This document shows positions 32,373 through 38,983 of a stretch of 38,983 nt of DNA, in pieces. The translations under genes were made by a program, and so were the position numbers. Within the stretch, counting starts at the first letter, position 1. Every line of letters starts with the position of its first letter. The stretch covers positions 1-38,983 of the forward strand of contig JANYJG010000147.1 of assembly GCA_025358515.1 (NCBI GenBank). The letters run 5' to 3'. The notes beneath the pieces were generated by a model, which saw only the letters and a program-made list of their open reading frames with translations, made no database searches and was not told the DNA's origin. This DNA is from Chloroflexota bacterium (GTDB lineage: Bacteria > Chloroflexota > Limnocylindria > Limnocylindrales > CSP1-4).

Positions 32373-32459
32373 GCCGGAGTGGCGGAACAGGCATACGCAG
32401 CGGACTTAAACTCCGCGGCCCGCAAGGGCATCAGGGTTCGAGCCCCTGCTCCGGCACCA
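32373..32459 (+). tRNA. tRNA-Leu (TAA)
   Basis: An 87-nt type II tRNA. The acceptor GCCGGAG pairs with CTCCGGC. The stem GCGGA/TCCGC encloses loop CTTAAAC, giving anticodon TAA. CCA is encoded. An integrase gene starts 165 nt downstream, so the 3' end is the likely attachment site of the adjoining element. Confidence 0.95.
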
Positions 32460-32526: not shown

Positions 32527-32548
32527 TGGCAGCTTCGTGGCAGCTTCG
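32527..32548 (+). repeat. Perfect 11-nt tandem repeat upstream of the integrase gene
   Basis: TGGCAGCTTCG is present twice with no gap (32527-32537, 32538-32548), 68 nt after tRNA-Leu(TAA). It is a candidate arm-type binding site of the neighbouring tyrosine recombinase. Confidence 0.65.
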
Positions 32549-32623: not shown

Positions 32624-33823
32624 GTGAGCCAGTCCAGCAAGCCGAGGCGGAGCGCCGGCGAGGGGGCGATCTACGAGACGGCGGATGGGCGGCTTCGTGG
32701 TTCCATCCTGCTCCCGCTTCCCGATGGCACCTCAAAGCGTGTCTACGTCAGCGGCCGAACGCGCGCCGAGATTACTCGGAAGTTCGACGCGAAGCGCAAG
32801 GAGAGCGACACCGGCGCGGTGACCGGAGAAGATCTCGGCGCCTACCTAGCCCGTTGGGTCGAGGCGTGCCGGCCACGGCTGCGCTCGTCTACGCATGTCG
32901 AGTACGCGCGCCACGTCTCGCAGTACTGGCTGGCTGGTAGCTTCGCGGCCAACCTGGCCAGACTGCCGTTGGCCTGACTGCAGCCCGTCGACGTCGAGCG
33001 ACGCATGAACGAGATGGTTGCACGTGGCCTCTCGCCGTCGACGGCCCGACACGCGCGGTCGATCTTGCGGCGGGCCCTGAACGACGCCATGCGTGAGGGG
33101 CTGCTCAATCGGAACGTGGCGGCCCTGGCAAGGCCACCGCGGGCGCCGCGCCGCGAGATGCGGGCCCTCTCCGCGTCGGAGGCGTCGCGGTTGCTGTCGG
33201 TGTCCGTAGATGAGCCTGCGGGGCCGCTGTACGCCATGGCGATCGCAACAGGCTGTCGACTCGGCGAACTGCTCGGGCTCTCATGGGACGACGTTGCGGA
33301 AGATGGCCGCTCGCTGGTCGTGCGTCGCTCTCTGGCCGAGTCCGGGCACACGCTGGATGCAAAGGGCGGCCGACACGTCACCTGGGCACTGGCCGAGCCC
33401 AAGACGGAGCGGAGCCGTAGGACGGTCATGCTGCCGGCCGTAGGGGTGGAGGCGCTTCGGCACCAGTAGGCCCGCCAGGCCGCCGCCACGCTCGCCGCGG
33501 GTTCGGCCTGGCAGGACCGTCACAACCTCATCTTCACCAACGTCGTCGGACAGCCGTTGAACCCCGAGAGCGTCTCTTCCGGCTTCCGCAAGATGGCCAC
33601 TCGACTCGGGCTCCAGCCGGTCCGTTTCCACGACCTTCGCCATACGGCCGCTAGCCTGCTCCTGGCAGCCGGCGTGCCCCTCAAGGTGGTGAGCGAGACG
33701 CTCGGCCACAGCTCGATCGCCATCACCGCCGACGTCTACCAGCACGTTACACCGGATCTTCGGCGCGAAGCTGCCGATGCGCTCGACCGGGCGCTTCCAG
33801 TGAAGCGTCATCTGAAAGACTGA
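32624..33823 (+). pseudogene. int: Phage-type tyrosine integrase, interrupted by two in-frame stop codons
   Basis: One 400-codon frame from GTG 32624 (GGAGGA 7 nt upstream) to TGA 33821 encodes a full-length integrase, but codon 118 is TGA (32975-32977) and codon 282 is TAG (33467-33469). The frame continues across both stops with uninterrupted homology and no frameshift. The N-terminal part has an arm-binding-type region and a SAM-like core-binding domain (GLSPSTARHARSILRRAL). The catalytic residues are all kept: Arg212 (TGCRLGE), His336 and Arg339 (HDLRHTAA), His362 (LGHSS) and Tyr372. The gene reads away from tRNA-Leu(TAA), the presumed target. It is best read as a recently inactivated integrase; readthrough or a sequencing/assembly artefact are alternatives. 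Confidence 0.85.
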
Positions 33824-33852: not shown

Positions 33853-34239
33853 TCACTCCCGGCCCGACGCGACCTCGCCGATGGCCGAGGACGGAACCAA
33901 TCGTCGCCGGCCGACCTTGACGCTCCGGATGCGTCCTGCCCCGATTTCAGAATAGAGGGCGGTCCGACCGATGCCGAGAGCCCGGGCGGCCTGCTCGATG
34001 CTCAGCAGCTGGTCGGGTTTCCGCTCGCTCGGCGGACGCTCGGCGGCAAACTCATCTCGGAGCGCAGCCACAAGCTCCGTCACGGCCGTCGTGAGCCGGT
34101 CGCTCATCGGACCACGGGCGTTCGACGGCACGACGGGCAGGAGCATCGACCTGATGATCTGGCCTCCGCCTCGTAACGACTGCCGCCCGGATTGGCGCTC
34201 CCGTTCGGATCCAGGCTTGCGCATTGGCAACTCGTTCAT
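33853..34239 (-). CDS. Helix-turn-helix protein, excisionase-like
   Basis: A 128-residue protein whose C-terminal 55 residues form a MerR/excisionase-type winged helix (LLSIEQAARALGIGRTALYSEIGAGRIRSV ending in VGRRRLVP, here described in two parts: the helix-turn-helix, then the wing). The long start ATG 34239 is chosen because it overlaps the replication gene's stop codon by 4 nt (ATGA). An internal ATG at 34107 would give an 84-residue protein containing only the conserved part. In actinomycete integrative elements a small xis gene sits between rep and int, and this gene occupies that place. It should direct excision or repress the module. It is convergent with the integrase pseudogene, whose end is 29 nt away. 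Confidence 0.75.
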   Translation of the reverse strand: MNELPMRKPGSERERQSGRQSLRGGGQIIRSMLLPVVPSNARGPMSDRLTTAVTELVAALRDEFAAERPPSERKPDQLLSIEQAARALGIGRTALYSEIGAGRIRSVKVGRRRLVPSSAIGEVASGRE

Positions 34240-35690
34240 GGCGCCGACCGATGCCGGTGCCAGTGGCGTGCGGTGCTCGTCGACACATTCCGCTTATGAG
34301 CCGACCCGGCAGAACCGAAAGACTCCAAACCATCCGGCGAGGAGGCGCTTCCACGGAAGCTCGAGGCCACGGCCCGCTCAGCCGGAGATAGGCCAGATCC
34401 GGCGTAGCGGAAGCTCCGTCGGATGACGACCTGGTCGCCTATGCCCTTGGCCCTGATCTGGGCGAGCCAGGGATCGGCCTGGGCTCGATACTCGGCCCGG
34501 ACGCCGCGCAACGCCGCGAAGGTCACCGAGTAGCGACGGGCCTTGGTCAAGAAGTGGCCGCGGAAGCCGAGGCTATGGGCCCAACGTGGGCTCAGCATCC
34601 AGGCCAACCGCATCAGCGCTCGCGCGTGGTCGGACAGGTCCGCTCGCTCGATCACTCCCTTGACGCGGATTCGGCGATCGAGGCCGCCGCCAACGCCTGC
34701 GTCCTTGGTTGCGTACTTTGCTAGGTACCCTGCGACTGCGACACGATCTGCGTCGCCGACGCTGGTGTTGCGCGGGATGGGCCTGACGTCGATCTGTACG
34801 CCCCAACGGACGATCAGCTCACGACCGTCGGGTCCTACCACCGTGACCGCTACTCGCGCCGCGGTGCGGGCGACGGCCTCCGCTAGACGCTGCGCCGTCG
34901 CTCCGCCCGCCGGCGCGGTGTCGGGACCGTCCGGTCCGTCAAGCCGGATGACCGCATGGACGTGCACGGCACCGCGGGCCTGGAATTCCGCGACCTTCGC
35001 CTAGGCGACGCGGACCCTGGTGCGCAACGCTGCGACGCTAAGTCCGCTCAGGGCGGCGAGCTCGCGTGGCAGGTACGTGATTGTTCGGCGCCACAGGGCG
35101 CCGAGGTTCGCGTTCCAGAGGGCCGCAGTTTCGTAGTCGTAGCAGTCTGGGCAGAGCGCCTGCCCGATCCGGGGATCGTCGCCGGCGTGCCGCTCGAGAC
35201 AGCGCGTCGGGATGCCGTGTTCGCATTCCTGCGGTTGACCACTGACCCGGCAACGGCGCACCTCACCAGCATCGACCACACGGCGATGGACCGCGCCGAA
35301 CGATGGTGCGGTGAAAGTCGCGAACACGAGTGGATGCGAGCCGACCGATGCTGACACGCCTCGGGCCTCGTTGCCAGAAAGGCCAGCCGTGACGAGGAAG
35401 TAGGCATCGCGACGGTAGCGTTCCGAGCAGGGAGGACACCGCGTCTCGCGTCGATTGCCACAGGCGACGAGCACGAAGCCTGGCGCTTGTGCTCTCGTCG
35501 ACCGCCGAGCCACGACCGCTCCTGAGTGTGCCGAGACGGCGACCGACTCACCTTCGAGGCGGATCGGCGAGGTGCAGCCGCCGGTGCGCCTGATCAACTC
35601 GACGACGGCCGGCGCGCCAGCGCCGTAGCGGCGCGTGAGCACCGCCAGGGACGCCGGCTGAGACGCGGGCCGAGACGCAGCGACCAGCAC
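34236..35690 (-). pseudogene. RepSA-like replication initiator (HUH type), interrupted by one in-frame TAG
   Basis: A 485-codon frame from GTG 35690 to TGA 34236 is broken only by TAG at 35003-35001 (codon 230). The two halves read as one protein: cysteine pairs in the first half (CGNRRETRCPPC, CEHGIPTRC, CPDCYDYETA), then, after the TAG, AKVAEFQARG, the HUH metal-binding motif (His243, His245 in HVHAVIRLDG) and GYLAKYATK with candidate catalytic tyrosines Tyr322 and Tyr326. This is the replication initiator family of actinomycete integrative elements and plasmids such as pSAM2. In relatives the position before AKVAEFQ is often Tyr, so a TAC or TAT to TAG change is likely. The gene overlaps the HTH gene by 4 nt and follows the Pra-like gene after 10 nt. 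Confidence 0.8.
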
Positions 35691-35700
35691 CGCTATTTCC

Positions 35701-36126
35701 TCAGGCGCCCTGCTCGGGGCGATGGAGGGGCTGCGGGACCTGCGCCTTTGGGGACGCGCCTCGAACCGCCGTAGCCCGGAATGCCCAGGCCAGGCGCGGC
35801 CGAGAGCCCGAAGCGTCGACGTATGGCGTTGCCGTCAGTCCCTCGAAGGCGACCGACGGAAACGGCGAACCCGCAGCCGCCGGCGGCAACGTCGGCGGGT
35901 TGCGAGCCGAAATCTTGACCCGCACGACCTTGCTTCGCGCCTCCGGGTCGGCGTCGAAGACCGAGATCGCCCACGTCGGCAGCCCCGAGTCTCGATCGTG
36001 CGCCTGGACCTTCTGCTCACGGGTCGAGGCCTCGAAGTCGACGACCTGCTCTACGGCGCCAACGGCGTATGCCCCTGCCGGGAACACCAGCTCGTTGGTG
36101 ATTGGAATGTGCCTGCTAAGTGCCAT
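35701..36126 (-). CDS. Plasmid replication/integration/excision activator, Pra-like
   Basis: A 141-residue protein starting at ATG 36126, with AGGAGA about 8 nt upstream. It carries the blocks typical of the activator protein found beside RepSA-type initiators: FPAGAYAVGAVEQVVDFEAS, STREQKVQAHDRDSGLPTW, VFDADPEARSKVVRVKIS, and FEGLTATPYVD followed by RPRLAWAFRA. In pSAM2 the Pra protein switches on the rep-xis-int genes. Here the gene is first in a pra-rep-xis order on the minus strand, which supports that role by context. It is intact, unlike the rep gene. The family match is from memory and firm at the level of the sequence blocks. Confidence 0.8.
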   Translation of the reverse strand: MALSRHIPITNELVFPAGAYAVGAVEQVVDFEASTREQKVQAHDRDSGLPTWAISVFDADPEARSKVVRVKISARNPPTLPPAAAGSPFPSVAFEGLTATPYVDASGSRPRLAWAFRATAVRGASPKAQVPQPLHRPEQGA

Positions 36127-36718
36127 GTCATGTTCTCCTATCTGATTTGGACAGCCGGAATCAGCCGACGCTTTGCTCACAGCTATCGCCGTTAAGAGCT
36201 CGCGTAGGGGGCTCCGGAAAGTGGGGGCGAGCCCTCTCTTTTGGTCCGGAATGCCTTACCGGGACCTGGGCCAGTCGCCACACAAGACGCTAGGCCGACC
36301 AACCGGTAGAGTCAAGGTTTTCTGCGTACCATCGTGCGTACCAAATTCGCCGGAATCCGCTGGCGCGACCGTCAGCCTGTGTGAAAACGGCAGTCCTGAG
36401 CTCGGACGACGTCTGGGATCGCGGACTCAACCGCGGCCAGCCATGTGGTCGGTGCGATGGAAGCGTTCTCGAGGGACTTCGCTTTGATCGCTGCGACCGG
36501 CGAGTATGGCCCGATGCACGGGGTCATCGGGCGGGTTCGCCTCTTATCGCCGCGATCCGCTCTTGGGAACCTACCGAGAGGGCGGGCTGGTGATCATATC
36601 AGCGCAGTCGAGAGCGTACGCAGGCTTGACCCGAACCTTGGTTGGCTGAACCTCGGACGCCGCTTGTTACAACTTTCTCTACTGCATCAAAGGCGGTATG
36701 TGACCGCGCACGGTGGAT
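36127..36718. other. Gene-poor stretch upstream of the Pra-like gene
   Basis: About 590 nt with no convincing coding sequence on either strand. It holds a 9-bp stem with one G-T pair (36206-36214 with 36229-36237) followed by CTTTT on the plus strand, and a near-tandem repeat of TGCGTACCA (36323-36331 and 36335-36343). It probably contains the promoter of the pra-rep-xis module and/or the far border of the element. Confidence 0.4.
36323..36343 (+). repeat. TGCGTACCA direct repeat
   Basis: TGCGTACCA occurs at 36323-36331 and 36335-36343 with a 12-nt period. It recalls the tandem repeats next to tRNA-Cys and tRNA-Leu(TAA) but with a different core, so its relation to them is uncertain. Confidence 0.45.
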
Positions 36719-37018: not shown

Positions 37019-37546
37019 CTACTCGTACTCGATCACTCCGCCTGGTCGGACGACGACATGGGGCAGTTCCGTGGCCGGCTGAAACAGCCGCCAGCATTCG
37101 TTTGTCTCGTCGTCCGCCGGCTCTACAAACCCAAGGTCGGTCAAAGTCTCCAGCACGCAGCCGTCAGTAAAGACGAGTCGAAGATCGCCAGCTTCGCCAA
37201 GGGTGGCCGATTCAGCGCGGTGCACGGTTTCTCCGTGGGCGAGGAATTGCTCCATGAGTTCATCTCGTCGAGACCCGCCCAAAGAGTGAGGTTTGAAGTC
37301 GTCGTCGGAGACGCCTCGTGCGGGGACCCAGAAGTCGCGACGGCCAACTAGAACTCGGCCACTGGCGCGGATTCGCCACCCACCGATCAGATGAAGAGCC
37401 CACTCGCCGACCGTCCTGACCTCGCCGCGAAACTCTTGCGTCACGCGATCGCCGAACTGGAACATCTCCATGTCGGCCGCTCGCGTCCGATCCCAGATAT
37501 GGCGGCCTTCAAGCGCGCTCACCGCCTGCAGAACTCGTTCATCCAC
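37019..37546 (-). CDS. Unrecognised protein downstream of the Rhs gene, candidate immunity protein
   Basis: A 175-residue soluble protein if started at GTG 37546, which has AAGGG 8 nt upstream. An in-frame ATG at 37606 would add 20 residues but lacks a well-placed ribosome-binding site. Seen: MEMFQFGDRV, EWALHLIGGWRIRASGRVLVG, RDFWVP, DLRLVFTDGCVLETL and NECWRLFQPATELPHVVV. The pattern is that of a small alpha/beta protein with a conserved Trp-rich core. I recognise no named domain with confidence. It follows the Rhs gene on the same strand, which is where polymorphic-toxin immunity genes usually sit. The immunity role is inference from position. Confidence 0.65.
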   Translation of the reverse strand: MDERVLQAVSALEGRHIWDRTRAADMEMFQFGDRVTQEFRGEVRTVGEWALHLIGGWRIRASGRVLVGRRDFWVPARGVSDDDFKPHSLGGSRRDELMEQFLAHGETVHRAESATLGEAGDLRLVFTDGCVLETLTDLGFVEPADDETNECWRLFQPATELPHVVVRPGGVIEYE

Positions 37547-37652
37547 ATTCAGTTCCCTTCCGGCACAGAATCCAGACCGTGGGGTGACCGCTTCTTGTTG
37601 GAACATTCTCCGGTGCTTGACAGCGCGTCAAGGCTCGAATGCGGCCACACTC

Positions 37653-38983
37653 CTATCCCTTGCACCTCTCCATCAGTTGGAGGGCGATGTCATATATCTC
37701 GTCAGGGGTGTAGCCCTGCCTGCTGATTGCGAGGTGGAGCGCCCGTTGGATCTTCCTCGTAAAGGTGCAACCCAGCTCTTTGGCGGCCTCCTTGCCCATC
37801 CGGTGCATCACCTCATTCTCGACTTCATTGTTCGACATGCGTGCACCGTACTCATCGAACGGCATTCGGCCAGTCGGATCGGATAGGTGGACGGGGTTCT
37901 GGCTGCCGTAGCCGTAGGGGCTAAACTCGGATCCGGGCAGCCCAACCAGTGCGAGCGAGTTGGCCGAAGGACCGCGAAGCGCAGGCGTCATGGATGATCC
38001 CGAGCATCCCGTCCCACAATTCGCCTTGGACAACGCTGGGGCGCTCACGCTATCTAATGCGTTGCCGTAGAGACCGACCGGATCTTCACTGAGAAAGGCA
38101 CCGGCGACCGAGTCGTAGTAACGAGCACGGGCATAGTAGAGCCCGGTTCCGGAGTCGTAGCTGTAGGTCCCGTAGGCGTAGGTACCAGGCGAAGTGCCGA
38201 CAGCGGAGCCGTAGGCGGTGTACGTGAAGGTGGACACCAGGGCCCCGCTGCTGTTCGTGAACCCGGTGACTGAGCCGACGCCGTCGGCGAGCGGATACGT
38301 AACCGCGCCACTAACGTTGCTTTCCAGCAGCACGCCTGGTAGATCGCCGGTGCCCATCGTAGTGACGTAACTCGCCCGCAGAGCGTTTGCCCCGTCGTAC
38401 TCGGCGACCACATTGGCCCCGAGGTTGGCGTAGCGGGTGGTGCCGGCGGCGCTCGACTGCTCGACCCGACGGCCGATGGCGTCGTATCGATACGCGACGG
38501 TGCTGCCGTCGGGCAGCTGAGCCGAAGTCATCTGGTGGAGAACGTTCCAGGTGTAGGTTGTGACCTTGCCGGTTGCGCGCTCGGTGCGGCCGGTCTGGTC
38601 GCCCTCGTTGTCGTTGGTGTAGGTGAACCTGGCATCGGAGAGCAAGCGGTTGGCGGCGTCGTAGGACTGGCTTGACTGCGTCTGGTTGCCTGCGGGGTCG
38701 TAGGCGAAGGTCTCGTCCGGCAGGCTCGACCCGGCCGGAGCAAGGACTGAGATCAGCCGATCGGCGGTGTCGTAGCCGTAGGTGGTAGTGCCGGCGGAGT
38801 CCGTCTTGGTCGTGCGCCGACCGGAGTCGTCATAGGTGTACGACAGGGCATCGATGGCCGTTGCACCCTTTAAGCTCGTCCGCGACGAGAGCTGGCCGGT
38901 TAGCTCGTAGGAATAGACGTCGTTCACGCCGTTGGGGCGCGACAGGCTCGCGAGACGCCCTAGCGGGTCGTAACCGAAAGTGA
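37653..38983 (-). CDS. RHS/YD-repeat protein, 5' end outside window, with a short unrecognised C-terminal tip
   Basis: The frame is open from the right edge to TAG at 37655-37653 (443 codons seen), so this is the C-terminal part of a large protein. YD repeats are frequent (YDPLGRLASLSRPNG, YDTADRLISV, YDPAGNQTQS, YDAANRLL, YDAIGRRV). The Rhs-associated core follows: DSGTGLYYARARYYDSVAGAFLSEDPVGLYG. An insertion of about 45 residues with two Cys (CGTGC) comes before the closing GYGSQNPVHLSDPTGR. The last 68 or so residues, after DPTGR, are unlike the core and include EVENEVMHRMGKEAAKELG and DEIYDIALQLMERC. In polymorphic toxins this position holds the toxin domain. I recognise no toxin family. 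Rhs proteins are large secreted or surface proteins used in contact-dependent competition. Confidence 0.88.
   Translation of the reverse strand, partial: TFGYDPLGRLASLSRPNGVNDVYSYELTGQLSSRTSLKGATAIDALSYTYDDSGRRTTKTDSAGTTTYGYDTADRLISVLAPAGSSLPDETFAYDPAGNQTQSSQSYDAANRLLSDARFTYTNDNEGDQTGRTERATGKVTTYTWNVLHQMTSAQLPDGSTVAYRYDAIGRRVEQSSAAGTTRYANLGANVVAEYDGANALRASYVTTMGTGDLPGVLLESNVSGAVTYPLADGVGSVTGFTNSSGALVSTFTYTAYGSAVGTSPGTYAYGTYSYDSGTGLYYARARYYDSVAGAFLSEDPVGLYGNALDSVSAPALSKANCGTGCSGSSMTPALRGPSANSLALVGLPGSEFSPYGYGSQNPVHLSDPTGRMPFDEYGARMSNNEVENEVMHRMGKEAAKELGCTFTRKIQRALHLAISRQGYTPDEIYDIALQLMERCKG

Follow-up and report, generated by a model that had tools for sequence, protein, structure and literature searches.

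What are actinomycete-type replication genes doing in DNA that groups with Chloroflexota, and do they belong to an actinomycete integrative and conjugative element (AICE)? The window, the whole stretch of 38,983 nucleotides that was analyzed, is contig C28 of a 2.78-Mb MAG. The MAG was 93% complete with 5.8% estimated contamination. The window contains an element shared with sibling loci, which spans from tRNA-Leu(TAA) (32373-32459) to about 36690, where homology to the siblings ends. The element is very likely a recently inactivated copy of an AICE-derived integrative element family that lacks Tra and is established in one Chloroflexota genus. It contains the following features.

32373-32459, plus strand: tRNA-Leu(TAA), attL side; attachment core at 32405-32422 (anticodon stem-loop), by analogy with sibling L029.
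32527-32548, plus strand: the repeat TGGCAGCTTCG twice in tandem, candidate arm-type sites for the integrase, present beside both att ends in L029.
32624-33823, plus strand: tyrosine integrase pseudogene with stops TGA at 32975-32977 and TAG at 33467-33469; catalytic motifs still readable in frame.
33853-34239, minus strand: xis-like HTH_17 gene, intact, 128 aa.
34236-35690, minus strand: RepSA replication initiator pseudogene with an in-frame TAG at 35003-35001.
35701-36126, minus strand: Pra-like gene, intact, 141 aa, apparently a distant relative of the SCO3933/Pra family, with a weakly predicted OB-fold.
36486-36557, no strand assigned: near-invariant imperfect hairpin upstream of pra, candidate origin or regulatory structure.
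36664-36682, plus strand: 19-nt box TTGTTACAACTTTCTCTAC; homology to siblings ends just after it, at about 36690.

The initial annotation described pra followed by rep and xis, with a spacing of 10 nt and an overlap of 4 nt, and the domain matches and coordinates agree. On the minus strand, pra and rep are 10 nt apart, and rep and xis overlap by 4 nt (ATGA). All three genes are real. They are only part of the element, whose integrase had been overlooked, and rep is not one open frame. It is interrupted in the window copy and intact in siblings. The two halves of the RepSA gene match PF20199 (E values of 1.7e-68 and 1.4e-49), and NF041486 matched too. Across the stop, the PF20199 score is 441 bits, so the replication protein of an AICE is present. 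The xis product matches HTH_17 and TIGR01764, which is of the excisionase type. The same gene order was found again in siblings across the host genus, so the block is not due to chance.

The integrase gene (PF00589) begins 165 nt past tRNA-Leu(TAA) and is convergent with xis. The stop in rep lies 13 codons ahead of the HUH motif. Downstream of it, the HUH motif (34964-34950) and motif 3 with its tyrosines (GYLAKYATK, 34730-34704) can still be read. Where the three stops occur, the codons of relatives are CGA (AAG in L029, CGG in L021), AAG (CGG in L021), and TAC. Each of the three in-frame stops is one base from a relative's codon. Rep of the window, compared with that of the intact sibling L019, has a dN/dS of about 0.2, as intact siblings have among themselves, so the inactivation was probably recent. 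The window copy would then be a recently pseudogenised remnant and probably not a fresh arrival. Stops or frameshifts also occur in other copies of the host genus, and many copies are broken. A reassigned stop codon was ruled out as the cause of the interrupted frames, because the stops are of two kinds and stand in place of different amino acids.

Integration is at tRNA genes. The integrase pseudogene of the window stands at tRNA-Leu, and intact siblings have pairs of attachment sites. No attR was found on the window contig, where a second tRNA-Leu attachment copy was sought; the contig stops about 2.3 kb beyond the shared element. In L029 (G400:C35), int adjoins an intact tRNA-Leu(TAA), whose anticodon stem-loop recurs as an 18-nt copy (CTTAAACTCCGCGGCCCG) about 6.85 kb away. 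Repeats of the TGGCAGCTTCG type are close to both ends. L029 and L130 (G406:C55) also have a tRNA-Cys 3' remnant that starts abruptly at the anticodon loop (CTGCAAAACC). Judged by its sequence, this abrupt remnant is the mark of an attR. In L021, a complete tRNA-Cys adjoins int, and L038 and L043 are located at tRNA-Lys. Intact siblings in the same genus thus occupy tRNA-Leu, tRNA-Cys, or other sites.

Further elements were present in the genus. The window's own genome contains at least one more, L005 4123-4529 (G000:C114), which is cut by contig ends and is 82% identical to the window in nucleotides over the pra/rep junction. Another right end, L129 (G000:C176), was found in the same genome. 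A second element group of the genus (L025, L026, and L027) has RepSA paired with a serine recombinase and not with a tyrosine integrase. The cargo of L130 (2272-7185), L029 (627-2271), and L005 (813-1862) includes proteins that are predicted to be secreted or membrane-bound and that match no Pfam family.

The hairpin and the 19-nt box occur in 0 to 3 copies per genome in the host genus. The hairpin region folds only mildly better than shuffled sequences (z of -1.7), and a search of Rfam with the conserved hairpin region gave no match. The hairpin of L129 has a shortened loop and keeps the stem. The hairpin/box region would fit a candidate origin of replication or a cargo junction. In the window (36664-36690) and about 20 sibling loci, the box is conserved near-perfectly, and the flanks diverge on both sides. 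It is followed by TGC or GAG and then by ATCAAG-like sequence. That the box is a pC194-like nick site (CTTGAT, minus strand) is doubtful, as that part is not conserved across copies. To the right of the element, the window contains a gene for an RHS-repeat protein, cut by the contig end, and then a small gene (37019-37606 and 37653-38981). RHS/polymorphic-toxin genes also lie beside RepSA elements in several Streptomyces plasmids (L134, L135, and L137), perhaps by coincidence.

By synteny and grouping, the host is placed in the Chloroflexota and outside the Actinobacteria, the hosts of AICEs, with the phylum name taken from deposited record titles and the genome collection's own grouping. The chromosomal part of the window (lemA, htpX, and a tRNA cluster) is syntenic with G049:C119 at 78% nucleotide identity. 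This contig is PLOC01000052.1, "Chloroflexi bacterium isolate fen_1069," and G049 is in the same genus as the window genome. WhiB was absent from four genus genomes; among the named controls, it was found only in Corynebacterium. Of 400 genomes sampled from the phylum, 4 gave a full-strength match to PF20199, and these four belong to the host genus. Within that genus, a group of peat-fen Chloroflexota with several element copies per genome, 13 of 21 genomes have a PF20199 RepSA. Across the family (107 genomes), the sole match beyond the genus was borderline (G447; E value of 2.5e-5). Several families of Chloroflexota have open frames of about 160 to 450 aa, e.g., L004 (G000:C33:14485-14610), that resemble the RepSA profile over a short stretch, with E values near 1e-5. 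They possibly represent a different, related family.

The nearest named Reps are from other Chloroflexi fen MAGs and one GL140_3 MAG, with 71 to 87% identity. The next nearest, at about 35 to 46%, are from Nocardioides, Microlunatus, Streptomyces, Nonomuraea, and others. In a maximum-likelihood tree, which is unrooted and has limited actinobacterial sampling, a branch with support of 97/92 sets the 18 Chloroflexota Reps apart as one clade, beside actinobacterial Reps. This clade splits into two lineages that are about 50% identical. Phage relatives of Rep were sought, and none were found. Since Rep and Pra are homologous to actinomycete AICE proteins, DNA of this family appears to have crossed between the phyla. 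The crossing is counted as old because the genus has its own Rep clade with two such divergent lineages. On the simplest reading, the genes were acquired from actinomycetes once, long ago, and then diversified within the host genus. We infer the direction, from actinomycetes to Chloroflexota, from the much wider actinobacterial distribution and not from a tree root. The initial annotation had raised an extended host range or a transfer between phyla. This holds in that the host groups with Chloroflexi MAGs, is syntenic with one of them, lacks WhiB, and carries homologous Rep and Pra proteins; the transfer is old and not fresh. The same annotation proposed a check for close Reps resident in Chloroflexota. 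Such Reps are common in one genus only, and there they are in mobile elements at different sites.

The annotation had also taken the genes for the replication core of an AICE, with no FtsK-like transfer gene in the window. No Tra match was found there. In actinobacterial relatives, the order is a Pra-family gene, an FtsK-like Tra, further small genes in some, rep, xis, and int. Between pra and rep, where the actinobacterial Tra sits, the Chloroflexota elements show just 10 nt or a short spacer. A tblastn search with six actinobacterial Tra proteins found Tra in 21 of 25 actinobacterial loci. The same search gave no match in 29 Chloroflexota loci, although the genus genomes are MAGs of 73 to 95% completeness in which a Tra gene could escape notice. 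The published definition of an AICE is Int plus Rep plus Tra (Ghinet et al. 2011, PMC3218068). The Chloroflexota elements are thus not AICEs, because Tra is lacking in all sampled copies; what stands of the AICE reading is the homology of the replication and integration half. Five of six genus genomes encode a single FtsK/SpoIIIE protein over the cutoff, of about 800 aa, and the contig that encodes it has no element. Two additional FtsK/SpoIIIE matches in G257 are on element-free contigs as well.

The elements suggest recent spread between species with more divergent chromosomes. Those of G049:C89 and G404:C50 are 97.3 to 97.5% identical over 3.3 kb, whereas a chromosomal segment of the two genomes is 86% identical over 1.4 kb (a further 237 bp is 95% identical). 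The elements of G049:C16 and G410:C11 are 97% identical, with chromosomal DNA at 84%. These comparisons use one chromosomal segment, and the element contigs are short and may be misbinned. A type IV secretion system coupling protein (PF02534) was sought in eight genus genomes and found in none. ComEC was present in six of the eight.

Two rival explanations concern the place of the genes in this genome. An actinobacterial contig misbinned into a Chloroflexota MAG is hardly credible. The estimated contamination of 5.8% leaves room for it, but the element is on one contig with chromosomal genes that are syntenic to another genus genome, and its Rep resembles those of many separate Chloroflexi MAGs from several samples (71 to 87% identity) far more than actinobacterial Reps (about 40%). 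It is also very improbable that these are resident chromosomal genes of the genus that are no longer mobile. Their presence in 13 of 21 genomes and the many broken copies would be expected of such a set. Mobility is favored by the variety of tRNA sites, by genomes with several copies, by the tyrosine or serine recombinase genes next to rep, and by near-identical copies shared among divergent species.

The other two concern what the element is. It could be a functional element whose stops are readthrough sites or assembly errors, as the stops come without frameshifts and the dN/dS resembles that of intact copies. We consider this improbable, since two different stop codons occupy the three positions, at which relatives have K/R or Y, and since other copies of the genus have stops or frameshifts too. 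A genuine AICE, whose Tra either lies past the end of the contig or comes from a second AICE in that cell, seems about equally doubtful. In its favor, the contig has no attR and stops about 2.3 kb after the shared element, and the MAGs are incomplete. Against this, the actinobacterial Tra lies between pra and rep, where Chloroflexota copies have only the gap or spacer. Neither L029, with both attachment sites, nor L130, with an attR and most of the element, contains Tra, and the FtsK matches of the six genomes are not on element contigs.

The Pra-like protein shares about 38 to 50% identity with proteins encoded upstream of Tra in elements of the Nocardioides type. It scores 19 bits against NF051478 (cutoff of 80). 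Through the Nocardioides-type relatives, hhalign links it to the SCO3933/Pra family with a probability of 96.5%, so it appears to be distantly related to that family. SCO3933 has been reported as a Pra homologue (PMC8584621). According to work cited in PMC3218068 and PMC8584621, Pra of pSAM2 activates the rep-xis-int operon. AlphaFold models of the window protein (pLDDT of 83) and of an actinobacterial relative (pLDDT of 88) are almost all beta. The models were compared by Foldseek with the PDB and a viral library. Nearly all best PDB matches are OB-fold proteins (SSBs, POT1, TPP1, RPA, and MCM), and none is individually significant (E values above 0.03, TM scores mostly 0.3 to 0.5). No solved structure was significantly similar to Pra in sequence. 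The models weakly suggest an SSB-like OB-fold, which is a lead only because of the individually nonsignificant matches.

In intact relatives of this Tra-less family, the integrase would recombine the element into a tRNA anticodon loop and excise it with Xis. RepSA would nick the excised circle and drive rolling-circle replication, which the Pra-like protein may switch on or assist. The FtsK-type transfer gene of the actinobacterial relatives may have been lost or may never have arrived. With no such gene, the element would need outside help to move between cells. As point mutations truncate its integrase and Rep, the window copy is expected to be incapable of excision and replication without help from related copies in its genome. 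A bolder reading, which we regard as rather unlikely, is that a rolling-circle lineage was freed from conjugation after crossing from actinomycetes to Chloroflexota and spread by, for example, DNA uptake. Pra would then be an OB-fold, single-stranded DNA-binding partner of RepSA rather than a classical transcription activator. DNA uptake is given as the example because of the ComEC genes and the missing coupling protein.

The family resembles AICEs of the pSAM2 kind (RepSA type) in its homologous Rep (PF20199), probable Pra-family gene, xis, and int and in its integration at tRNA genes. In both, pra is upstream of rep, and rep overlaps xis. Unlike pSAM2-kind AICEs, the Chloroflexota copies have no FtsK-like Tra or spd genes, and int of the window subgroup is convergent with xis and not cotranscribed. 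Their host is outside the Actinobacteria, and their Rep shares only about 35 to 46% identity with the actinobacterial Reps that were found. A partial AICE gene set and decayed copies are also known from AICE remnants, for example the SCO3937 element of S. coelicolor (PMC8584621). That remnant keeps a TraSA homologue, whereas the Chloroflexota family lacks Tra even where rep and int are intact and has diversified and spread in that state. Like integrative mobilizable elements (IMEs), the elements integrate, presumably excise, and encode an HUH protein without a transfer apparatus of their own. Unlike in IMEs, the HUH protein is a replication initiator and not a known relaxase, and with no PF02534 in eight genus genomes there is no obvious helper.

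No report of RepSA elements in Chloroflexota was found in the literature searched. AICEs have been defined and surveyed within Actinobacteria, and the Chloroflexota clade extends the host range of the replicon. It raises a testable question, which is how a Tra-less RepSA element moves between cells. If the OB-fold holds for Pra of pSAM2 too, this would hint that a known transcription activator takes a direct part in replication.
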